Shown here in pieces: positions 25,678 through 35,611 of a stretch of DNA of 37,146 bases. The stretch is from positions 1 through 37,146 of the forward strand of contig CALDNT010000185.1 in assembly GCA_937915145.1 (NCBI GenBank). The letters are read 5' to 3'. Positions within the stretch are counted from its first letter, which is position 1; the number at the start of each line of letters is the position of its first letter. Source of the stretch: an uncultured Reyranella sp. (GTDB lineage: Bacteria > Pseudomonadota > Alphaproteobacteria > Reyranellales > Reyranellaceae). The position numbers and the translations under genes are program-made. The notes below the pieces were generated by a model. It was not told where the DNA came from. It saw nothing but the letters and a program-made list of their open reading frames with translations, and did not search any database.

Positions 25678-27411
25678 ATGCTGGCTGATCTCAAAGCCGC
25701 CTGGCACCTGCGCGGGCCGTCGATCGGCGCCCACAGGCTCGGCTATGTGGCGATCCTGACGTTTCTGTCGGGTGCCAGCGACGGGATCGGGTTGATCCTT
25801 CTCATCCCGCTGCTGAATTCGCTCGGCGCCAAGCCTGCCGACGAACCCGGCGTGCTCGGCTGGCTTCTGGAGTTTCTGCCAGCCACGCTGACCGGCCTGC
25901 TGTTGGTGTTCCTGGCCGTCGTCGTGCTGCGCGCGATCGTGGCACGGCTGCGGGAGGACATGGTGGCGCGCCTGCGCTTCGACTATGCCGTCGCGCTGAA
26001 GATCAGGATCTATTCGGCCATCGCCAATGCCTCGTGGTCGTATCTGCGGCGCAAGCGGACCGCCGACTATCACGCGCTCTTTGCCGCCGAAGTCGACCGC
26101 ATCGAACATGCCAGCCAGCTGCTGTTGGAAATTCCCATCCGCGTCGCGATCTTCCTTGCCCATGTGGTGATCGCATTCGTCATCGCGCCAGGGTTCTCGG
26201 CCCTGGTGATCGCGCTCGGCCTTTGCCTGGTTTGGGGTCTTCGGCACCGGCTTGTCGAAAGCCGGCGCCTCGGCGACATCGTCTCCGAGGCCAGCACGCA
26301 GGTGAGTCGCGAGATCACCGAGTTTCTCCAGGCACTTAAACTGACCAAGGCCTACGGTGCCGAGGCCCGCCACATCCGCGCCTTCGCCGACGCCGTCGAG
26401 CGAGCCGAAGGAGCAGGACTGGCGAGCAGCCGCCTGCTGGCGAAAACCCGAATGGCCATGGAGTGCGTGACGGCGGTGGGGCTGGCGGCGTTTCTATGGC
26501 TGGCCGTCAACTGGATCGGGCTGCCGCTTGCCAACCTTCTTGTCCTGATCTTCGTATTCCAGCGTCTCATGCCGATGTTCCAGGAGATCCAGAACCTTGT
26601 GCAGGAGTTCGTTCACAGCTCGTCGGCCTTCCAGATCGTCGCGGGGGCCGTCGCCGATTGCGAATCGGCGGCCGACCGGACGGAGCTGGCGCTTCCGTCG
26701 CCCCTGCGGCTCGAGAAGGAACTGCGCTTCGCGGGCGCAGGCTTCGGATACGGCGCCACCCCGGACGACGTCCTGCGCGATATCGATCTCACGCTTCCGG
26801 CCGGCTCGCTCACCGTGCTGTCGGGCGTATCGGGCGCCGGCAAGAGCACGCTGCTCGATCTCGCCGGAGGACTCATCGTCCCAACGGTGGGGCGACTTCT
26901 CGTCGACGGCGTCGAGCTGACGGCCGAACGCGCACCGGCCTGGCGCCGCTCGGTAGGTTACATGGCCCAGGAGGCGTTTCTATTCCACGACTCGATCCGC
27001 GCCAACCTCGCCTGGGCGGACCCCACCGCGACGGACGCGCGAATGCTGGAAGTCATCCGCCTGGCGGGGCTGGCCGACCTGCTGCGCGATCTATCCGGCG
27101 GGTTGGACACCGTCGTTGGCGACCGTGGCGCCAACCTGTCGGGCGGCGAGCGCCAACGGCTCGCGCTGGCGCGGACGCTGCTGCGCGCGCCCCGGTTGAT
27201 CCTTCTCGACGAACCGGCCAGCGCTCTGGATGCCCTGAACGAGGAACGCATCCTCGAAACTATCGCCGGTCTGCACGGCACGACGACCATCCTGCTGGTC
27301 ACCCACCGGCCACTGGCGATTGCCGGTGCCGATCAGCGCTTCACGCTGGTCGACGGCAGGCTGATGGAAGCAACCGCCTTGGCGGCGAGCCGAAACGGCC
27401 GCATGACATAG
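25678..27411 (+). CDS. ABC transporter (permease-ATPase fusion), likely lasso peptide exporter
   Basis: A 577-residue exporter half-transporter. The membrane domain covers about 20-310. The ATPase domain has Walker A GVSGAGKST (383-391), signature LSGGERQ (487-493), Walker B LILLDEP (507-513) and switch H543. It has no peptidase domain, as is usual for lasso D proteins such as McjD, which export the finished peptide and give immunity. It lies at the edge of the cluster and runs toward the nucleotidyltransferase gene; the two overlap at their 3' ends by 79 bp (27333-27411). A tiny upstream frame (ATG 25659 to TGA 25688) overlaps the start and could tune translation. Confidence 0.88.
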   Translation: MLADLKAAWHLRGPSIGAHRLGYVAILTFLSGASDGIGLILLIPLLNSLGAKPADEPGVLGWLLEFLPATLTGLLLVFLAVVVLRAIVARLREDMVARLRFDYAVALKIRIYSAIANASWSYLRRKRTADYHALFAAEVDRIEHASQLLLEIPIRVAIFLAHVVIAFVIAPGFSALVIALGLCLVWGLRHRLVESRRLGDIVSEASTQVSREITEFLQALKLTKAYGAEARHIRAFADAVERAEGAGLASSRLLAKTRMAMECVTAVGLAAFLWLAVNWIGLPLANLLVLIFVFQRLMPMFQEIQNLVQEFVHSSSAFQIVAGAVADCESAADRTELALPSPLRLEKELRFAGAGFGYGATPDDVLRDIDLTLPAGSLTVLSGVSGAGKSTLLDLAGGLIVPTVGRLLVDGVELTAERAPAWRRSVGYMAQEAFLFHDSIRANLAWADPTATDARMLEVIRLAGLADLLRDLSGGLDTVVGDRGANLSGGERQRLALARTLLRAPRLILLDEPASALDALNEERILETIAGLHGTTTILLVTHRPLAIAGADQRFTLVDGRLMEATALAASRNGRMT

Positions 27412-28520
27412 TAGAGAAACCACAGGGCCGGCGGCAATTTCACCGCCTCGTAGTCGCCCGTGGTGCGGGTCAGCGCAAGCCGCAGCCATGCGCCGAGCTT
27501 GGCGATCCGGCTTTCGCAGAGATGAAAGTCGGAGAAATTCTGTTCGTCGTCGGGTTCCGGCAGGCCTTCCTTCAGATGGAGGGTCAGTCGCGCCGCGAGG
27601 GCGCGGACGCGGTCGCTGCGGTCAAGCGCGCCGAGCAAGGCCTGCGGAACTGGCGCATCGAGAAGCTCCCGCGCCATGGCACAGGCGAGCAGGACGGCGT
27701 CGCCGCATCCCCGGGCCCGGGCCCGCCGGTGGACGTCGAGCCAATCGAGATCGGGCGAACAGTCGAGCAGCATGGCGAAGTCGCAGACCCAGCCCAGGCA
27801 TCTCCAGGCTTCCTTGGTGCCGTGGCCGGCCAGCAGCAGGGCGAGGTTCGCACCCGACACGGTGGGAAGCGAATGGTTGCCGATCGATACGCGATCGAGA
27901 TCCCGCCACACCTCGGCCGGCGACAGCGGAAACGGCACGTGGGCGCCGCTGAAATCCCAATGCAGGTCGATCGTGGTATCGGCGGCGGCGTGAACGAAGG
28001 CCCATTGCCGCAGGTAGCGGAGAAAGGCATGCCGGAACGCGCGGTCACCGTTGGCGGCGCGATAGCCGAGCGCTTCGAGCAGGCGCTCGGTGGCATCGAC
28101 CTGTTCGACCGGGACGAGGATGTCGATGTCGACATACTCGCGGCGAGATACGTCGCCGTAGAGTGCGACCGCCAGCGCCGCGCCCTTGAAGACGGCAAAG
28201 CGCAGCTGCTTTTCCGCAAGAGCCGCGGCCACACGGAAGAGTTCCTCGGAAGCGGCCAGCGCGCGCGCGCCATGGAGCCTCTGAAAGCCCTCGAGCTCGG
28301 CCCTGGCCGGAGCCGGCACGCCCTCCCACGACAGTGCGCTGAAGCCGCCAATGAGCTGCGGGCGAACTCCATGAAAGTCTGCCAGGTCGATCAGTCCTGG
28401 AAAATCGACGCCCGCGCGCAACAGCTGTTGCGCACGCGCCAGGTCAGGCGTTCGGCGCGCAATCAGACAAAGCAGATCGAATTCAACGCTGCGGGTTGGA
28501 AACCTGGCCGAAACGGACAT
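27333..28520 (-). CDS. Nucleotidyltransferase-family tailoring enzyme of lasso cluster
   Basis: A 395-residue protein of the uncharacterised nucleotidyltransferase family (NTP_transf_5-like). The key block FKGAALAVALYGDVSRREYVDIDILVP contains K112 and the metal-binding D131-x-D133. Relatives occur in lasso and other RiPP clusters together with HPr-kinase-like kinases. In the pseudomycoidin cluster such a gene (psmN) has been linked to adding a sugar-like group to a phosphorylated lasso peptide, as I recall. Here too both kinase and nucleotidyltransferase are present. It is the last gene of the leftward operon, 57 bp after precursor 1. The reaction is inference. Confidence 0.82.
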   Translation of the reverse strand: MSVSARFPTRSVEFDLLCLIARRTPDLARAQQLLRAGVDFPGLIDLADFHGVRPQLIGGFSALSWEGVPAPARAELEGFQRLHGARALAASEELFRVAAALAEKQLRFAVFKGAALAVALYGDVSRREYVDIDILVPVEQVDATERLLEALGYRAANGDRAFRHAFLRYLRQWAFVHAAADTTIDLHWDFSGAHVPFPLSPAEVWRDLDRVSIGNHSLPTVSGANLALLLAGHGTKEAWRCLGWVCDFAMLLDCSPDLDWLDVHRRARARGCGDAVLLACAMARELLDAPVPQALLGALDRSDRVRALAARLTLHLKEGLPEPDDEQNFSDFHLCESRIAKLGAWLRLALTRTTGDYEAVKLPPALWFLYYVMRPFRLAAKAVASISLPSTSVKR

Positions 28521-28577
28521 CCCAGTTCAAAGCGTCGGGAAGGTAACTCTGCGAGCCCCGCGCTCAGTCCGCGAAGA

Positions 28578-28754
28578 TCAACGCGTCTTCCGCGGTTGCT
28601 TGCCTTTCCCGCCATCGTTCCCCCCGGAACTTCCGACCGCCAGGGTCATGTCGCGAAGCGTTCCCCACCGTACCAGCGTAGGCGCCGCATAGGCCGCTTT
28701 TGCCTGCGCCACTTCGGCGGGGACATCGGTATTGCTGGCAGGAAGGACATCCAT
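28578..28754 (-). CDS. Lasso peptide precursor 1 (58 residues)
   Basis: A short gene between the B1 and nucleotidyltransferase genes. The predicted leader is residues 1-38 and contains the lasso recognition motif Y22-A-A-P-T-L and G31, with Thr37 at leader position -2. The core of 20 residues begins A39-V-G-S-S-G-G-N-D47, then GGKGKQPRKTR. An Ala1-Asp9 isopeptide would give a nine-residue ring and a basic 11-residue loop/tail. The leader segment WGTLRDMTLAVG is identical in the precursors at 34826-35011 and 35112-35288. The ribosome binding site before ATG 28754 is poor (AAGG about 14 nt away), so another start is possible. It is too short for many gene finders. Confidence 0.9.
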   Translation of the reverse strand: MDVLPASNTDVPAEVAQAKAAYAAPTLVRWGTLRDMTLAVGSSGGNDGGKGKQPRKTR

Positions 28755-28828
28755 CGGCGGGCCGCCTTTATTGCATTAGATCAGAGACATTAGCACAGGC
28801 CCGATATCGCGAATAGCCTTGCGAGGTG

Positions 28829-29116
28829 CTATTCGACGGGTTCGATCAGGCCAGCCTCCTGAAGGCTGACGAGGAACTTGATCACGTCGTCGCGGCAGTC
28901 CTCCGGCGTCACGTCGAAATGCTTCACGACATCGCTGCAAATATCGGCGACCGACCGTGGTTGCTCGAGCCCGCTCCAGATCTGGGCGCCCACGCCTTGC
29001 AGGCCGAAGTAGAGTGCGCTGTCGAGATGCAGCAGTGCCACCTCGTCGTTGAGGTTGCAGGCGACCTGTTGCGTCGACCTCTTCACCACTGTCGAAAGCT
29101 CGAGCATTTGCGACAT
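28829..29116 (-). CDS. PqqD-like leader-binding protein (lasso B1)
   Basis: A 95-residue protein with the PqqD/RRE fold: strands VVKRSTQQVACNLNDEVALLHLDSALYFGLQGVGAQIWSGL followed by helices SVADICSDVVKHFDVTPEDCRDDVIKFLVSLQEAGLI. In lasso clusters with split B genes this protein (B1) binds the YxxPxL leader motif and presents the precursor to the B2 peptidase. It lies between the cyclase gene and precursor 1, all in one direction. The 88-bp gap before it contains a hairpin CCGCCC-GGGCGG (29160-29179). Confidence 0.92.
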   Translation of the reverse strand: MSQMLELSTVVKRSTQQVACNLNDEVALLHLDSALYFGLQGVGAQIWSGLEQPRSVADICSDVVKHFDVTPEDCRDDVIKFLVSLQEAGLIEPVE

Positions 29117-29159
29117 TCCCCAATATCGACAGGCGAAACAACTCCGTCAGTCTTTATTA

Positions 29160-29179
29160 CCGCCCTATTTTACGGGCGG
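29160..29179. promoter_or_regulatory. GC-rich hairpin between lasso C and B1 genes
   Basis: CCGCCC and GGGCGG flank an 8-nt AT-rich loop in the 88-bp gap after the cyclase stop. No U-run follows on either strand, so it is not a standard intrinsic terminator. It could be an RNA-processing or partial-termination element that sets different levels for cyclase and B1/precursor, or mean nothing. Confidence 0.3.
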
Positions 29180-29204
29180 CAATCGCCGCAAAAGAACGGC
29201 CGCC

Positions 29205-30980
29205 TCAGGAAATGCCCTGAGCCAACCACTGATCGAGCACGTGGACCGCCAGGATCCGATCGAGATCGTTGCCGATCGCCGCGCCAACCGGCAGAGCGCG
29301 GACGTCGACGTATTCAGCCAGGCGGCCGCCCGGCGACAAACCCGGGAGACCGCCAGTCCGGAATGGGTCGGCAATCGGCGTGGCCGGAAACGACACCTTC
29401 TTGCGCGCGAGGACTTCCGGCGGGAGCCGGCCACGCATGGCCTCGCGCAGCAGCAGCTTCTCCCTCCCCCACGGAACCGGCGGCACCGACAACATGAACT
29501 CCAGCACCCGCAGGTCGAGAAAGGGATGGCGCCAGACGAGAGGGGCCAGGGATTCCTCAAGATCGTGGTCGGTAAATACCGCCGCCCAGATCGAATTGTT
29601 GAACGACGCGAATGCTCGCGGGTGCCAGGGGTGAGGCGGCGCTGCCGCAGCGTCTGCGCCACCAAGTCGTGCTTCCAGGTCGAGGCGAGCAACGAATGGG
29701 CGGTCAAGCCACGGTGGAACGTCGAAGGAATCGTCGGGTTCGGTGCGCCGTCCGGCGTATCGGCGAAGTGTCGCCATCCAACCGGACAGGCCCTTGGCGG
29801 CAACATACTGCAGGACCGCCTCGCTCAGTCGCCGCCAGTCGCGGCGCCCCAGCAGCCAGGAAAGGTAGGCGTTGCGTTCGAACGGAAGCGCATTGTCGGG
29901 CCCTTCGCCTTCGAACCAGACCTGGGCCCTGCCGGCCTGCTCACGGCCGATGGCGCGATCGTGGTAGGCCGACAGGATGGAAGTCGTCGGCTCGGCCGTC
30001 CGGATCGACCGCGATCGCCACTGCGGATCGAAGTCGAGATCGTCGATCGGCCGAAGTTGCAGCTCTATACCCAGTTGCCGGGCGACGAGCGCGCTGAAGT
30101 GATGCTCGTCGTCGGGCATCAATCGTTCGAAGTGGGTGCACTCGGCAACGACGCGCGACGGATCGCCTGTCGCCTCGACGGCAAAGGCCGCCAGTGTCGT
30201 CGAATCCAGACCGCCGCTCATCGAGATGCCGACCTTGCCGGCCGGCAACCGGTCCCTGGTGGATTTCAACAGCAAGTCGATCAGCTGTTCGAAGTATCGT
30301 CGGCGGTCGCTGTAGTAGAGCGGCTCGGCGATATCCAGGCGCCAGTACCGGCGCAGATCCGCACCGCTGTCAGAGAGCGTAAGGACATGGGCCGGCGCCA
30401 GCCGCCGAATGTGCCGATAGACCGTCCGCTCGAATTCCAGACAATGACCAACGCTGAGAAAGTCGGCGACCCAGGCGTCGTCGAGATCGCGGCCGACCGG
30501 CGCAGACGTCGCGATCCAGTCCAACGAATCGCCGATGAACCATGCACCGCCGGCATTGGCATGGAAGAGCGACCGCACGCCGAGCTGGTCACGGGCGCAG
30601 ACCAGGCGATCCCGCGGGCCGTCCCACAGCACGAAGCAGAAATCTCCCGCGAGGCGGTCGAGAAACCCATCGCCCCATGCGGCGTAGGCGTGCAGGCAGA
30701 GTTGCGCGTCGGTGAGCCCATCCGCGCTGCTGCCAACGCGATCCGACAGGCGCGCCCGAAGATCGTCGCGCGCATCGAGCCGGATCCGGCCGGCGATCCA
30801 GTAACGTCCGTCGAGGCTCTGGATGCCGCACGAGCCAATTTCGGACAATGCCGGATCGACTTTCGTGCAGATGAAGGCAACGCGGCGTGCGCTGCCCAGG
30901 ACCTCGACATCATGGCCTGCGGCACCGATCGGCCGTGGATCGATCGGCCGGCCGTCCGTATTGAAGATGGCGGCAAACAA
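29205..30980 (-). CDS. Lasso macrolactam synthetase (asparagine synthetase-like, C protein)
   Basis: A 591-residue AsnB-like enzyme. The C-terminal ATP-pyrophosphatase domain has SGGLDST (255-261) and later WRHPFLDLRVLEFMLSVPP and REAMRGRLPPEVLARKK. The N-terminal glutaminase-like domain starts MFAAIFN, without the Cys2 nucleophile of true asparagine synthetases. That fits lasso C proteins, which activate the Asp/Glu side chain as an AMP ester and close the ring onto the core N-terminus rather than use glutamine. The TTG start at 30978-30980 follows the B2 stop by 2 bp. The expected reaction is an Ala1-Asp9 isopeptide in the three precursors. Confidence 0.93.
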   Translation of the reverse strand: MFAAIFNTDGRPIDPRPIGAAGHDVEVLGSARRVAFICTKVDPALSEIGSCGIQSLDGRYWIAGRIRLDARDDLRARLSDRVGSSADGLTDAQLCLHAYAAWGDGFLDRLAGDFCFVLWDGPRDRLVCARDQLGVRSLFHANAGGAWFIGDSLDWIATSAPVGRDLDDAWVADFLSVGHCLEFERTVYRHIRRLAPAHVLTLSDSGADLRRYWRLDIAEPLYYSDRRRYFEQLIDLLLKSTRDRLPAGKVGISMSGGLDSTTLAAFAVEATGDPSRVVAECTHFERLMPDDEHHFSALVARQLGIELQLRPIDDLDFDPQWRSRSIRTAEPTTSILSAYHDRAIGREQAGRAQVWFEGEGPDNALPFERNAYLSWLLGRRDWRRLSEAVLQYVAAKGLSGWMATLRRYAGRRTEPDDSFDVPPWLDRPFVARLDLEARLGGADAAAAPPHPWHPRAFASFNNSIWAAVFTDHDLEESLAPLVWRHPFLDLRVLEFMLSVPPVPWGREKLLLREAMRGRLPPEVLARKKVSFPATPIADPFRTGGLPGLSPGGRLAEYVDVRALPVGAAIGNDLDRILAVHVLDQWLAQGIS

Positions 30981-30982
30981 TA

Positions 30983-31429
30983 TCAGGCCGGGCCAGACTT
31001 GCCGGCGGCAGGTGCCGGGCCTTCGACAACCCGCCAGGTGACCAGTCGCGTGAAGCGGTCATGCTCGGGTTCGCCGATCAGTATTCGGCCTTCGCAGGCA
31101 AGCCAGGCATGAGCCGAGAATTTCTCATCCGACCTGGCGACGCCTATGTGGAGTTCGGATGCATGGCCCTCGGTCGACAACAGCCGCTGCAGGGCGAGCG
31201 CCGAGCCCAGACACGTGGTCCCAGGCAACCAGCGCGAGGCGGCGCTGACCGCCCAGACGATCCGATCGACGGTTCTCGTCCCCCGCTTCAGCTGACCCGC
31301 CCAGGCGCGCAACCGATCGACGGCGAACAGATGGAGAGCGAGACGCACTGCCGCCACCGTCGCAACAGCCTCGAGCAGCAGCATCCGGTCGCGGCCCGTC
31401 AGGGCAAGGAAGGCCGCGACGGCTCTCAC
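30983..31429 (-). CDS. Lasso leader peptidase (transglutaminase-like, B2)
   Basis: A 148-residue protein matching B2/McjB C-terminal domains: Cys73 in LPGTTCLGSALALQRLL and His107 in KFSAHAWLACEGRIL form the catalytic Cys-His pair. The usual third residue, Asp twelve residues after the His, is Gly119 here, and Glu120 follows directly, so the acid may be shifted by one. With B1 it removes the leader after Thr-Leu to expose core Ala1. The ATG overlaps the kinase stop (ATGA), and the cyclase follows after 2 bp, a tight lasso operon. Confidence 0.92.
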   Translation of the reverse strand: MRAVAAFLALTGRDRMLLLEAVATVAAVRLALHLFAVDRLRAWAGQLKRGTRTVDRIVWAVSAASRWLPGTTCLGSALALQRLLSTEGHASELHIGVARSDEKFSAHAWLACEGRILIGEPEHDRFTRLVTWRVVEGPAPAAGKSGPA

Positions 31430-32445
31430 GGGAACGCGCGCCGACGGATTTCTTCGGCCACCCGCTCGAGTACCGGATAGCTCCTAGCATAGCGCAATGC
31501 ATAGACCGGCAGCACACCCGCCATCCGCTCGGCGAAGCGCAACTGCCGCGCCAGGCGGTCGGGCGCGTAGTAGCGAATTTCCATGGCCGATACGCTGAGC
31601 GTCCGTACCAGATCGATGCCGACCAGCCGCGTCGACGATACGGCGTCGCCCGGCGCCGCCGGCAGCCGCTCGTCGAGCCAGAACAGGGCAGCAATCGGTT
31701 GCGGGATGTGCCGCGTCGGCATCGGATCATGCGGCTGCACCATGATCTTGCCGCTCATGGCGTTCCAGTGGCCATCACCGACCGCTTCGGGCAGTAGCCG
31801 CGCGGCCGCCTCATCCAGCAGTTTCAGACGCTGGGGACCGGCATGTGCAAACGCCCTGCCGTCGGCGAATGTCAGGCGCAGCATGTCGTCGGTGATCAGT
31901 TTCGCGCCTTGCGCGATCAGGAATGCCGCCAGCGTCGACTTCCCGGCGCCGCTCGGCCCGAGCAGGCCGACCACGCGACCGCCGAGATCGACGACGGTGG
32001 CATGCAACGGTTCCTCGCCGCGCAGAGTGAGTGACGTGCTCAGGACGAAATTCAGGAGATTGGCTTCGAACGACCTGTCGTCGACGCCCGCCAGTCTCGA
32101 ACAAACGACATCGCATCCGTTCGGCGACACGATGGTCTCGAAGACCTCGTCGACCCTCATGTAGACGCAACCATTCGGCAGGACGGCATGGAAGAACCAA
32201 TCCTCGGGATCGGCTGCCAATCCATGTGTTCGCGCGCGAAAATACGCCGGCGCCTCGAGGCTGATCCTGATGGCGGCCTCGACATCCGGTTCGGCCACGT
32301 CGATGGATGTCAGCGGAAACTCACATTCGACGACAATGCCGTAGACGACATAGCGATACGTGCCTGTCACCGGGAACGCTCGATGGATGAATTCCTCAAA
32401 AGGCTTGGCAGGAGCGTCCAATTCGGCTTCTCTCCAGTTCCGCAT
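31426..32445 (-). CDS. HPr-kinase-like lasso peptide kinase
   Basis: A 339-residue protein with an HPr kinase-like C-terminal domain: the P-loop GPSGAGKST at 163-171, preceded by H148-A-T, and followed by KLITDDMLRL (D186-D187). Similar kinases (ThcoK, PadeK, PsmK) phosphorylate the C-terminal residue of lasso peptides, usually Ser. The cores here end in Thr-Arg, so Thr at the second-last position or another Ser/Thr in the ring would be the target (inference). It is the first gene of the leftward operon. The start at 32445 lies only 20 bp from the divergent dioxygenase ATG; an internal GTG near 32370 (VTGTYR) could be used instead. Confidence 0.88.
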   Translation of the reverse strand: MRNWREAELDAPAKPFEEFIHRAFPVTGTYRYVVYGIVVECEFPLTSIDVAEPDVEAAIRISLEAPAYFRARTHGLAADPEDWFFHAVLPNGCVYMRVDEVFETIVSPNGCDVVCSRLAGVDDRSFEANLLNFVLSTSLTLRGEEPLHATVVDLGGRVVGLLGPSGAGKSTLAAFLIAQGAKLITDDMLRLTFADGRAFAHAGPQRLKLLDEAAARLLPEAVGDGHWNAMSGKIMVQPHDPMPTRHIPQPIAALFWLDERLPAAPGDAVSSTRLVGIDLVRTLSVSAMEIRYYAPDRLARQLRFAERMAGVLPVYALRYARSYPVLERVAEEIRRRAFP

Positions 32446-32465
32446 CTCATCGAAGCGATGCCGCC

Positions 32466-33266
32466 ATGATACGAATTGACTGCCGAAACGTCTCCGGCGA
32501 GCCGGCCAAGTCGGAGCAAGTGCGGCTTGCCCATGATTGCCTCGTCAGGAACGGCTACGCAATCCTCGACCATGTGTTCCCCGAAGACAAAATCCGGGCC
32601 CTGAACCTCGAATTCAACGAGCATTACGCCAGATTCCGGGAAGATCGCGAGTTCGAAGACACCGTGGAGGTCGGCGCCGGACGGTTCCTGGTGCCGATCG
32701 ACCTGGCCGGCGGCTTCGGCGATCCGTTCATCTACGCCAACCCTCTTGTCGTGGCACTTGTCCGCGAGACCCTCGAACCGGATGCGATCCTCGAAGCCTA
32801 TGGCGCGATCGTTTCCCTTCCCGGAGCGGTGGATCAGGAGATTCACCGCGACAGCCCCCTGCTCTTCAGCAACGAAATAGCGCCCCTTCTGCCCGCCCAT
32901 GCGCTGAACTTCGGCGTCCCGCTGATCGAGATGAACGAATTGCACGGCACCACGGCGCTCTATCCGAGGAGCCACCGCTGGAAAGGCTATGACAAGCAGC
33001 CACAGCCCGAGCTGCCGGTGGTGCCCATCGGATCCTGCATCCTGTGGGACTTCAGGTTGTTTCACGGCGGAACATCGAACCGCTCGAACATGCCTCGTCC
33101 GCTGCTCTACTCCACCTTTGCGCGGCGCTGGTATCAGGATCCCGTCAACTTCTCGAAAGCCACACAGCGTCGCCTGACCTTCGAGCCGGCCTTTTTCCAG
33201 AACCTGTCCGACGATCGCCGTCAGCTCTTCTCGCATATCGATCCGTCACTCGCCGCCGATTGCTGA
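32466..33266 (+). CDS. Phytanoyl-CoA dioxygenase-family Fe(II)/2-oxoglutarate oxygenase
   Basis: A 266-residue oxygenase of the PhyH family. The iron-binding set is H127-R-D129 (EIHRDSP) and H200 (RLFHGGTSN), with R211 placed eleven residues after H200, as in human PhyH (H264/R275), to bind 2-oxoglutarate. It should hydroxylate a substrate with O2. It lies within the lasso cluster, divergent from the kinase, and 7 bp before the methyltransferase gene. A 2-oxoglutarate oxygenase hydroxylates Asp in the lasso peptide canucin, so peptide hydroxylation is a fair idea, but the substrate here is unproven. Confidence 0.88.
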   Translation: MIRIDCRNVSGEPAKSEQVRLAHDCLVRNGYAILDHVFPEDKIRALNLEFNEHYARFREDREFEDTVEVGAGRFLVPIDLAGGFGDPFIYANPLVVALVRETLEPDAILEAYGAIVSLPGAVDQEIHRDSPLLFSNEIAPLLPAHALNFGVPLIEMNELHGTTALYPRSHRWKGYDKQPQPELPVVPIGSCILWDFRLFHGGTSNRSNMPRPLLYSTFARRWYQDPVNFSKATQRRLTFEPAFFQNLSDDRRQLFSHIDPSLAADC

Positions 33267-33273
33267 ACCGCAC

Positions 33274-34770
33274 ATGACCGACCGGACCGAAGGCTACGTC
33301 ACCGATGTCGGCTATACCCATGACTATTGTCACGAATTGAACCCTCTTCGGGCGAGGCTCGCGTTGCTGAATGCCGGCATGAGCGCCCCCGAGGTTGCCA
33401 CCGCCTGCGAACTGGGCTTCGGTCAGGGGTTAAGCCTCAACATCCACGCGGCCGCCTCGCCAGCCGATTGGTACGGCACCGACATCAACACCAGCCATGC
33501 CGGCTTCGCGCGGAATTTGGCATCGGCTTCCGGTGCCACAGTGGAGATTCTCGACGAGGCCTTCGGCGACTTCGCCAATCGCCCGGATTTACCGGACTTC
33601 GACTACATTGGCCTGCGCGGCGTCTGGTCCTGGATTTCGGACCGCAACCGCGTGGTGATCGTCGATTTCATCCGCCGCAAACTGAGAACAGGCGGCATCG
33701 TCTATCTCGACTACAATGCGCTGCCGGGTTGGGCGGCTTTTTCGCCGATGCGTCATCTGCTGGTCGAACACGCCAACCGCGGCGGTGCCAGCGACCGCGG
33801 AACGGCGGCGCGCGTTGACGATGCCATGGCCTTTGCGGCCAGGCTCCTGTCGACGCATCCGGAGTACGCCAAGGACAATCCGCAGATCCTCGACCGCATC
33901 AAGACATTGAGCGGCGAGGATCGCCGTTACGTCGCGCACGAGTATTTCAACCGCGACTGGGTCCCGATGCATTTCTCGACCGTTGCGGAGTGGCTGAAGC
34001 CGGCACGCGTCGACTACGCGGGTTCGGCGAATTTCTCCGATCACCTCGATGCGCTGAACCTGAGTAACGCCCAACGCGAGCTGCTGGAGGAAATTCACGA
34101 TCCCGTTTTGCGGCAGTCGACGCGGGACTTCATCATCAATCGGACTTTTCGCCACGATTACTGGATCAGGGGCGCGCAGATGCTGTCGGCCCCGGCCCGG
34201 GCCGAGGCTTTGCGCAAGGTCCGGGTGATGCTGGTGACGCGTTCGCCCGAACTGCCCTTCCAGTTGCACGCCGCCCTGGCGCTACACAGGAACAGCTTCG
34301 GCGCGGCAACCCATGCTGCGGTTCTCGAAATCCTGGTCGACTACAAGGTGCGATCCATCGGAGAGCTGGAGCAGGCGATCGGACGCAAAGGCATATCTTT
34401 GGGGCAGATCGTCGACGCGGTGACGTTCATGGCCGGTCTGGAACATATCGCCGCCGCACAGGACGAGACGGTGATCGCCCGCGTTCGTCCGCACACCGAC
34501 AGGCTGAACGCGCACCTGATTGAAAGAGCGCGAACCAGTGGCGATATCGCCGACCTCGCCAGCCCGGTCACCGGCGGTGGTGTCAGGGTCCGCCGCACCC
34601 ATCAACTCTTCCTGTCGGCGTTGCGGCAGGGCCGGGCGCGACCGGAGGAATGGGCGGACGACGCATCAAAATTCCTGGTGTCCAAGCAGACCGATCCGAG
34701 TTTGATCGACGATGCCCGAGCGTTCGCTGCGGAAAAGCTGCCCCTGCTGCGTGCCCTGCAAGTTGTCTGA
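33274..34770 (+). CDS. Class I SAM methyltransferase with regulatory domain
   Basis: A 498-residue protein. The N-terminal Rossmann methyltransferase has motif I at CELGFGQG (45-52) and an acidic strand WYGTDIN. About 220-330 is the 'methyltransferase regulatory' segment (YVAHEYFNRDWVPMHFSTVAEWLKPARVDYAGSAN), followed by a helical C-terminal region. Such long methyltransferases occur in bacterial natural-product and surface-sugar loci; their targets are mostly unknown. It is co-directional with the dioxygenase, so the two may modify the same molecule, possibly the lasso peptide. It converges with the precursor genes at 34826 and 35112. Confidence 0.85.
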   Translation: MTDRTEGYVTDVGYTHDYCHELNPLRARLALLNAGMSAPEVATACELGFGQGLSLNIHAAASPADWYGTDINTSHAGFARNLASASGATVEILDEAFGDFANRPDLPDFDYIGLRGVWSWISDRNRVVIVDFIRRKLRTGGIVYLDYNALPGWAAFSPMRHLLVEHANRGGASDRGTAARVDDAMAFAARLLSTHPEYAKDNPQILDRIKTLSGEDRRYVAHEYFNRDWVPMHFSTVAEWLKPARVDYAGSANFSDHLDALNLSNAQRELLEEIHDPVLRQSTRDFIINRTFRHDYWIRGAQMLSAPARAEALRKVRVMLVTRSPELPFQLHAALALHRNSFGAATHAAVLEILVDYKVRSIGELEQAIGRKGISLGQIVDAVTFMAGLEHIAAAQDETVIARVRPHTDRLNAHLIERARTSGDIADLASPVTGGGVRVRRTHQLFLSALRQGRARPEEWADDASKFLVSKQTDPSLIDDARAFAAEKLPLLRALQVV

Positions 34771-34825
34771 TGTCGAAATTGCCTGATGTCGCGGCCCGGA
34801 CGCTGTCGAGCCGCGGACGCCAATG

Positions 34826-35011
34826 TCACCGCGTCCGCTTCGGGCCTTTTCTTTTTCCGCGGCCCCGATCCTTGGCGCCGCTGTAGCCAACGGCCAGCGT
34901 CATGTCGCGCAAGGTTCCCCAGCGCAGCAGGGTTGGCGCCTGGTAAGGCACCTTGACCGGAGGTGACGGGTCGGAATCGTGGGTAAGTTCGTCGGGCCGT
35001 TTTTCTTTCAA
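34826..35011 (-). CDS. Lasso peptide precursor 2 (61 residues, TTG start)
   Basis: It starts at TTG 35009-35011 with a strong AGGAGG ribosome binding site 6 nt upstream (35018-35023). The leader is 1-39, with motif Y23-Q-A-P-T-L, and shares WGTLRDMTLAVG exactly with the other two precursors. The 22-residue core begins A40-V-G-Y-S-G-A-K-D48, then RGRGKRKGPKRTR. Asp at core position 9 is kept, so an Ala1-Asp9 ring is predicted. The core is the most basic and the only one with Tyr. It lies downstream of precursor 3 on the same strand and converges with the methyltransferase gene. Confidence 0.92.
   Translation of the reverse strand: MKEKRPDELTHDSDPSPPVKVPYQAPTLLRWGTLRDMTLAVGYSGAKDRGRGKRKGPKRTR
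34890..34929. repeat. 40-bp direct repeat, copy in precursor 2
   Basis: These 40 bp are identical to 35170-35209 in precursor 3, 280 bp apart. They encode the leader end and the first core residues (from RWGTLRD to AVG). Exact DNA identity, with divergent flanks, indicates a recent tandem duplication of the precursor gene or gene conversion. Precursor 1 at 28578-28754 has a related but diverged version. Confidence 0.95.
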
Positions 35012-35111
35012 GCGTGACCTCCTTGCCTCCGAAGTTGGATCCGATCGCGGATCTACCGCTATGCGAAAATTGAGAGCAAGACTACCGAATCCCGCCCGCG
35101 TGACGGTTTTT

Positions 35112-35288
35112 TCAACGCGTTCGCCTGGGCCTCTTGCCTTTTCCGCCGTCCTTGCCGCCAGTTGAACCGACGGCCAGCGTCATGTCGCGCAAGGTTCCCC
35201 AGCGCAGCAACGTCGGTGCCTGGTATGACTTTTTTTGCGAGGACGGCTGGCGGGAAATACGGGCGGACTCGATGGGTTTGCTCTCCAT
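35112..35288 (-). CDS. Lasso peptide precursor 3 (58 residues)
   Basis: The start is ATG at 35288, with GGAGG 9 nt upstream (35298-35302); an in-frame ATG at 35309 lacks such a site. The leader is 1-38, with Y22-Q-A-P-T-L, G31 and Thr37 at -2. The 20-residue core begins A39-V-G-S-T-G-G-K-D47, then GGKGKRPRRTR. Counting core residues, it has seven Lys/Arg and one Asp, which is used in the ring. It is the same length as precursor 1 and shares most of its core pattern. The 323 bp upstream hold inverted repeats that may carry its promoter. Confidence 0.93.
   Translation of the reverse strand: MESKPIESARISRQPSSQKKSYQAPTLLRWGTLRDMTLAVGSTGGKDGGKGKRPRRTR
35170..35209. repeat. 40-bp direct repeat, copy in precursor 3
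   Basis: Exact copy of 34890-34929; see that entry. It preserves the leader/core junction, so selection on the B1/B2 recognition and cleavage region may also contribute to its conservation. Confidence 0.95.
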
Positions 35289-35611
35289 CTGGCGCGACCT
35301 CCATGACATTTATGTAGAATGGAAATCAGTTTCAATAGAAAACTGACTAGGTCAGAGAGCACCACCGAGATGGACCTCTCACGTCTTATTTTGGATATGC
35401 CCAAATAAAAGTAGCACAGTGGCGATACTAAGGCGCGGATCACAGGTCGCCAATCGCGATTTGATCGCCGCCGTCCCCAGATGGTCCGTTTCTCGCACGG
35501 GCGACCGCCATGTGGGGCCCTTCCGGGCCGCCACGGAATCGTCATTGCCGTCCCGCGGACGGCACGGCAGAAGTCATCGCCGCGGCGATCCAGCCGTGAG
35601 GGAGAGGCACC
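35289..35611. promoter_or_regulatory. 323-bp gene-free region upstream of precursor 3 and patatin gene
   Basis: The part next to precursor 3 is unusually AT-rich for this genome. It holds a perfect inverted repeat TCAGTTT (35326-35332) / AAACTGA (35340-35346), a smaller CTGAC-TAG-GTCAG (35343-35355), and an imperfect hairpin TTATTTTGG...CCAAATAA near 35387-35408. These are good candidates for the promoter and operator of the leftward precursor genes. The right half is GC-rich and ends in the patatin leader, with GGGAGAGG before ATG 35612. No gene or RNA is recognisable. Confidence 0.5.

Follow-up and report, generated by a model that had tools for sequence, protein, structure and literature searches.

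A predicted cationic lasso peptide cluster in Reyranella with a conserved tail threonine as candidate modification site

Genes and precursors at the locus

The window analyzed here is a stretch of 37,146 nucleotides from an uncultured Reyranella sp. (assembly GCA_937915145.1, contig CALDNT010000185.1, positions 1 to 37,146), and its positions 25678 to 35309 hold an apparent lasso peptide cluster with three precursor genes and four candidate tailoring enzymes. By testable genetic criteria the locus is a lasso peptide cluster: the cyclase (C), the leader-binding protein (B1), the leader peptidase (B2) and the precursor motif are all present. The joint proposal developed below, of a lasso product whose conserved tail threonine is the site of the kinase (K) and nucleotidyltransferase (N), strikes us as slightly more probable than improbable.

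Family scans of the window's proteins (Pfam and NCBIfam) recovered, in place, every gene named in a first-pass annotation of this DNA, which had described a complete lasso set (B1, B2, C and exporter) together with kinase, nucleotidyltransferase, 2-oxoglutarate dioxygenase and methyltransferase genes. The ABC exporter (D; 25678..27411, forward strand) carries membrane and ATPase domains in a single protein (PF00005, ABC_tran, 2e-29; PF00664, ABC_membrane, 8e-14) and converges with N (27333..28520, reverse strand; PF14907, 1.8e-47), the two genes overlapping by 79 bases at their ends. On the reverse strand, too, lie B1, a PqqD-like leader-binding protein (RRE) (28829..29116; PF05402, 7e-18; NF033536, 1.9e-17, under its cut-off); C, an asparagine-synthetase-like macrolactam cyclase (29205..30980; PF00733, Asn_synthase, 2e-23; GATase_7; NF033535, 2e-54) with 43-71% identity to 12 relatives; B2, a transglutaminase-like leader peptidase (30983..31429; NF033537, 4e-26, 91.9 bits vs a cut-off of 33; PF13471, 5e-24, 85 bits vs 26); and K, an HprK-like putative lasso precursor kinase (31426..32445; Hpr_kinase_C, 1e-6). 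Two further genes are on the forward strand: Ox, a PhyH-type Fe(II)/2-oxoglutarate oxygenase (32466..33266; PF05721, 1.8e-16), and MT, an S-adenosylmethionine (SAM) methyltransferase related to protein lysine methyltransferases (33274..34770; PF10119, MethyTransf_Reg, 5e-31). PF13471 and PF14907 each match once in the window's genome, at B2 and N respectively.

The three precursor genes, all on the reverse strand, lie at 28578..28754, 34826..35011 and 35112..35309. For the third, 35309 is one candidate start and an internal ATG at 35288 the other. As the annotation had also claimed, the precursors share the end of the leader, cores of one form and a common tail ending: alignment shows Y-x-A-P-T-L-x-R-W-G-T-L-R-D-M-T-L in all three, then A-V-G-x-x-G-x-x-D and a Gly/Lys/Arg tail closing in T-R, so that each has YxxPxL spanning -17 to -12, Thr as residue -2 and Asp as core residue 9. 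Of the two precursors scanned with NCBIfam, the first (28578-28754) barely passes the model lasso_leader_L3 (19.4 bits vs a cut-off of 19) and the second (34826-35011) has no match; two precursors scanned with Pfam gave no match. The predicted cores are AVGSSGGNDGGKGKQPRKTR (28581..28640, ring residues 1-9, with Thr19 as the predicted modification site from alignment and family conservation), AVGYSGAKDRGRGKRKGPKRTR (34829..34894) and AVGSTGGKDGGKGKRPRRTR (35115..35174), all on the reverse strand, with predicted lasso masses of 1938.014, 2382.358 and 2022.131. The expectation of strongly positive products agrees with charges of +4, +8 and +6 computed after ring closure, each core having three or four lysines. 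The three cores contain no cysteines, so no disulfides are predicted and the products would be class II lasso peptides. Gly follows the ring Asp in two of the three.

A precursor family centered on Reyranella

A profile built from the window's three precursors matched in 44 of 75 genomes of the taxonomic family. Rebuilt from 24 sequences for an order-wide search, it matched in 44 of 76 genomes, comprising 44 of the 65 within the window's genus and none of the 11 outside it; recurrence on this scale, beside the same genes, is not chance. Among 139 precursor matches, three were unparsed: a degenerate copy that has lost T-2 and was fetched twice (loci L104 and L146), and a sequence that is not precursor-like (L114). 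The degenerate copy (L104, 9939-10163) is a decayed precursor in which Ala replaces T-2, in a genome (G041) with two further precursor matches. The 136 parsed matches reduce to 97 distinct precursors and, after removal of three from outside the Reyranella group (L149, L156, L184), to 94 precursors with 90 core strings, one of which was a misparse. Of the resulting 89 distinct cores, 85 occur in the window's genus and four only in L117, L131 and L139 (record set 'bacterium isolate D1-2020 MAG008'). The putative ring Asp stands at position 9 in 80 cores and at position 10 in the remaining nine; Gly3 occurs in 68 of the 89 and Gly6 in 73. The first-pass remark that aromatic residues are almost absent is true of the window's cores, which hold one Tyr among them, and does not extend to the family, in which Trp, Phe and Tyr are frequent.

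Of the loci found by a cyclase search in named genomes, 79 were kept; those from L163 onward (weak matches from many phyla, at most 38% identity) were excluded from the family. The close relatives come from Reyranella massiliensis, R. aquatilis, Enhydrobacter aerosaccus ATCC 27094 and numerous metagenome bins labeled Reyranella, Rhodospirillales or Alphaproteobacteria, and the best named relatives of the cluster as a whole are Reyranella. Next are L149, L156 and L157 (labeled Methylocystaceae, Methylocystis and Hyphomicrobiales), at 45-48% best-segment identity. When eight precursor-free genomes were searched for the cyclase, seven had no match and one a partial match.

The gene order K-B2-C-B1-A-N recurs across relatives. 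Gene presence was counted in 28 loci (39 with C, less 11 set aside for short flanks), which include more than one per genome and were fetched via the precursor, so that the precursor is present in all 28 by construction. K was found in 25 (one, in L091, a fragment), B2 in 21, B1 in 26, N in 26, Ox in 20 and MT in 10, and 13 have an exporter homologue (above 700 bits) no farther than 9 kb from C. Some of this evidence counts against the joint proposal: beside C, B2 is absent from seven of the 28 loci, Ox from eight and K from three, and in the window both C (NF033535, exception-level cut-off) and K (HprK model) score under curated cut-offs. These low scores mark C and K as divergent members of their families.

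Precursor genes also lie away from the enzymes in several genomes (loci L042, L044, L046, L047, L048, L050, L055 and L057). R. massiliensis (G012; precursors C1:7043, 2694521 and 2853948) has one precursor at a distance of roughly 6 kb from the cluster and two that are megabases off; another genome (G023) has four, none of them on the contig that carries its peptidase. Since each of the eight genomes tested holds one PF13471 match, a single peptidase probably acts in trans on scattered precursors. Two of the lone precursors (L046, L047), among the few whose neighbors were scanned, lie near a TauD-type oxygenase gene.

In one sub-group, a gene for a protein resembling nonribosomal peptide synthetases (NRPS) lies upstream of the cyclase gene, in the place that B2 and Ox take at other loci (L083 3129-7499; L091 3889-6666; L117 1426-4122, these three by scan; and L089 2774-7267, from Reyranella aquatilis, by eye). 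The protein has one or two adenylation domains, one carrier and one thioesterase, and no condensation domain was matched. Within this sub-group L117 has K and L091 a fragment of it, and no K was found in L083 and L089. The NRPS-like protein might attach an amino acid or an acyl group to the peptide.

Tailoring enzymes and the tail threonine

K is related to HprK by sequence, and a structure search with its predicted model (mean pLDDT 84) places it in the PEPCK/HprK fold group. Its catalytic residues H148, K169, D186 and D187 are kept in all 12 aligned rows that reach them (a 13th row is a fragment), and the same four are among the conserved residues given for BsfK (PMC10368454). A kinase profile search over 385 genomes of the class (E 1e-20) matched in six, three from the window's genus and three from another; the latter were dropped, as their fetched stretches held no B1, B2, C or N match, although one of them does hold an ABC transporter. 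For N, the predicted fold (mean pLDDT 89.5) is nearest to the antibiotic nucleotidyltransferases LnuA and ANT(2'')-Ia, with weak scores (E 1e-4 and worse), and nearer to these than to FKRP (5e-3); residues D131 and D133 are invariant in 18 of 18 sequences, and a sequence search of the PDB with N found nothing. The donor suggested by these likenesses could be either a nucleotide or a sugar or polyol in activated form. The nucleotidyltransferase of pseudomycoidin places one or two hexoses (PMC8498205). Neither predicted fold, of K or of N, fixes a substrate.

The acceptor is more readily approached from the precursors. Paeninodin-type kinases modify a C-terminal Ser (PMC9266682, PMC8498205), and BsfK phosphorylates Ser3, accepting Thr in its place (PMC10368454). 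A C-terminal Ser was considered as the K site and rejected for the window's peptides, in which all three cores end in Thr-Arg. A Thr 7-12 residues past the ring Asp is found in 89 of 89 distinct cores and in all 35 that remain after thinning to less than 60% identity, compared with at most 75 and 32, respectively, in 2000 rounds of pooled-letter shuffles. In 56 of the 89 it sits within [K/R]-T-[R/S/G/A]. Ser occurs in 52 of 89 tails, and Ser or Thr at any single ring position in at most 44 of the 80 cores with Asp at position 9, so among hydroxyl residues the tail Thr alone occurs in every core. A stronger point than the shuffle control is that hydrophobic-tailed relatives of the Hyphomicrobiales type keep both D9-G and R-T-S, in three of three cases (L149 1233-1457, L156 6195-6410 and L157 near 6436; the L157 precursor was located by text pattern only). 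Because the known kinase sites are Ser, the window's cores lack a terminal Ser, and the tail Thr is the sole universal hydroxyl, this Thr is the predicted site of K and N, an assignment we consider reasonably probable.

Several considerations weigh against that assignment. The shuffle control ignores relatedness and shared descent, and conservation near the C-terminus could partly serve threading, export or target binding. Loci L089 and L090, without K beside C, still carry the tail Thr, which speaks against K as the sole reason for its retention, unless K acts in trans. A cluster that makes a lasso while K and N act elsewhere, on a ring Ser or Thr or on another substrate, with the tail Thr kept for threading, export or contact with a target, would accommodate these two loci; it would also fit the ring Ser3 chosen by BsfK in a related cluster with both kinase and nucleotidyltransferase (PMC10368454), and 81 of the 89 cores do carry some Ser or Thr at ring positions 1-8. 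No ring position, however, is a constant Ser or Thr, as against the 89 of 89 cores and three of three hydrophobic-tailed relatives with the tail Thr, and we regard action elsewhere as possible, although distinctly the less probable account.

The two remaining enzymes extend the predicted chemistry beyond the tail Thr. The nearest solved relative of Ox is kanamycin B dioxygenase (2e-12), and its residues H127, D129 and H200, the iron ligands expected for this family, are kept in nearly every aligned row (H127 and H200 in 13 of 14, D129 in 14 of 14), the exception being a degenerate second copy. A second PhyH-like gene of this kind, in L081 (4197-5030), has lost both expected iron-binding His, with HxD changed to DxD, and is likely dead or repurposed. 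For MT, the only clear solved relatives are PKMT2 (8e-18, residues 35-294) and PKMT1 (1e-15), which are Rickettsia enzymes; homology to PKMT2 spans the SAM and regulatory domains, PF10119 being matched as well. Because the nearest relatives are protein lysine methyltransferases, the tail lysines are the likely target, and we give action on Lys an even chance. Each of 11 MT loci counted has a core with Lys, but so do 72 of the 89 cores overall, and with MT in only 10 of 28 loci there is no statistical support for a link between MT and Lys. Term searches of the open-access literature, with subscription papers mostly outside their coverage, returned no paper on Reyranella lasso peptides, the one paper to mention both being an Acetobacteraceae survey. 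None was evidently about a PhyH-type oxygenase or lysine methylation in a lasso pathway, two papers in each case mentioning both subjects.

Ring assignment, known lasso systems and a proposed pathway

The position of the ring follows from the leader. The YxxPxL motif of lasso leaders is described as always spanning -17 to -12 (PMC10368454). In a separate count of 97 distinct precursors (L114 and L184 excluded, L104 included), 95 have the spacing Y-17, P-14, T-2, with T 15 residues after Y; the two exceptions are one decayed copy and one precursor without Pro. Leu occupies -12 in 89 of 96. An Ala1-Asp9 ring is accordingly the predicted closure in the window, and we judge it probable. The nine cores with Asp at position 10 count against a uniform nine-residue ring: all open with Thr, so that Thr stands at both -2 and +1 (L099, L105, L108-L113), and they would require a ring of 10 residues unless the precursor is cut after the second Thr, two residues further on, which would give an eight-residue ring. 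Under a rival reading the cores of the family start two residues later, at the Gly3 found in most of them, to give a Gly1-Asp7 ring of seven residues, with the second Thr as T-2 in the nine cores just described; Gly is a usual first residue, and a core with Asp at position 7, GYGNAWDSKNGLF, is tabulated in PMC12427821. That later start appears improbable and ranks second because of the leader spacing, which matches a nine-residue ring in 95 of 97 precursors, and the residue that would fall at -2 is variable (A, S, T, K, N, H or F).

With the nine-residue ring retained, the 80 cores with Asp at position 9 open with Ala (27), Ser (26), Thr (18), Lys (4), Phe (2), Asn (2) or His (1). The metanodin paper gives Gly, Cys, Ser and Ala as examples of first residues known earlier, and itself adds Asn; cores opening with Trp and Leu are tabulated in PMC12427821. 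Cores with Thr1 or Lys1 would thus lie outside the first residues tabulated or named so far in these sources. Metanodin shares with the Reyranella family T at -2 and a first ring residue that is none of Gly, Cys, Ser and Ala; it opens with Asn, whereas the window's cores open with Ala and their relatives would open with Thr, Lys, Phe, Asn or His.

The product is very probably a lasso-type macrolactam. The window's tails, built of small Gly and flexible Lys and Arg with no aromatic plug, could also suit a branched-cyclic, unthreaded peptide. Long basic side chains can serve as lasso plugs, however, and the lasso gene set of the locus is complete, C and both B domains included, which makes an unthreaded product improbable.

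Among known kinase clusters, those of paeninodin, ThcoA and SyanA have, like Reyranella, an HprK-like kinase with His-Lys-Asp-Asp; their site is a C-terminal Ser, in contrast to the Reyranella cores, of which none of three in the window and nine of 89 in the family end in Ser. Pseudomycoidin and the Bradymonas bsf cluster share precursor, C, kinase and nucleotidyltransferase, and in bsf B1, B2 and D are separate as well, while the cores of both systems differ (in bsf, Gly1-Asp8, phospho-Ser3 and Ile at -2). The set of four modifiers, which the first-pass annotation thought unusual, is thus partly precedented: all four candidates are present, but the pairing of kinase and nucleotidyltransferase is known from these two systems. 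No oxygenase of the Ox kind or methyltransferase is named in the accessible text for either, and the Reyranella cluster has both. The canucin pathway also includes an iron/2-oxoglutarate oxygenase, the lasso hydroxylase CanE; Ox is a PhyH-type enzyme nearest to kanamycin B dioxygenase. The Reyranella cluster would appear to work like other lasso clusters with a kinase and nucleotidyltransferase, and to differ in its candidate acceptor, its methyltransferase homologue and its PhyH oxygenase.

The same annotation could name no lasso family with such basic tails; in fact lariocidin, SKKSKPGDGKFGRGVKRG (PMC12427821), and triculamin (PMC13192320) are both strongly basic and Gly-rich. Like the Reyranella cores they have no cysteines and a ring closed on Asp followed by Gly. 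They differ in an eight-residue SKKSKPGD ring, as against the predicted nine-residue AVGxxGxxD (by comparison with the printed sequences of PMC12427821 and PMC13192320), and in Lys acetylation, which serves self-resistance in that group (PMC13352647), where Reyranella has a lysine-methyltransferase homologue, predicted by sequence. No kinase, nucleotidyltransferase or PhyH enzyme is named for them in the available text, and the printed tails contain no Thr. As lrc-like clusters are reported in Alphaproteobacteria (PMC11451635), the Reyranella family may overlap with these. Descent from the lariocidin/triculamin family, with binding to the 30S ribosome, would account for the shared basic, Gly-rich character and for the Asp-Gly that two of the three window cores have at the ring end, but it is very improbable given the different ring, an alignment identity of 33-41% between sequences too short to count as evidence, the lrc GNAT and clostripain genes, not seen in family scans of the Reyranella cluster, and the lack of any kinase or nucleotidyltransferase among the lrc genes named in the text available.

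From the observed genes, motifs, conservation, spacing and synteny we infer a pathway, including each enzymatic step with its order and site, threading and activity. The locus would yield three class II lasso peptides. B1 would bind the leader at Y-17/P-14/L-12, and K would phosphorylate the conserved near-terminal tail Thr on the still-linear precursor, to which N would then add a sugar or nucleotide at the phosphorylated residue. MT may methylate tail lysines and the PhyH enzyme may hydroxylate one residue. B2 would cleave the precursor one residue past T-2, and C would join the new N-terminus (Ala1 here) to Asp9, forming a nine-residue, Gly-rich ring around a basic thread; the finished peptide would leave the cell through the ABC exporter. 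Lariocidin attaches to the 30S subunit and touches the A-site tRNA (PMC11451635). By analogy the likeliest role of the secreted peptides would be that of antibacterials acting within competing bacteria, a role we find plausible though not quite probable.

These observations add a large and seemingly unstudied family, of 89 distinct cores with 85 from the window's genus of soil and water bacteria, to the cationic lasso peptides, a group that has drawn attention since the ribosome was shown to be the target of lariocidin. Relatives are carried by strains with named records (R. massiliensis 521, R. aquatilis KCTC 52223 and Enhydrobacter aerosaccus ATCC 27094), and the single conserved Thr offers a clear, simple test for a kinase/nucleotidyltransferase pair whose chemistry is partly known. 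The lysine-methyltransferase homologue was not found reported for lasso clusters in the open-access term search. A broader scheme for the genus, which we advance only as an unlikely extrapolation, would have cationic lassos with a phospho-Thr on the thread extended by N, N-methylated lysines, one peptidase for precursors scattered over the chromosome, a nucleic-acid target inside the cell, for instance the ribosome, against which the charged-group chemistry would also protect the producer, and rings that in relatives begin with Thr, Lys, His or Phe. A ring opened by Thr1 or Lys1 in relatives would widen the accepted rule for the residue that opens a lasso ring.

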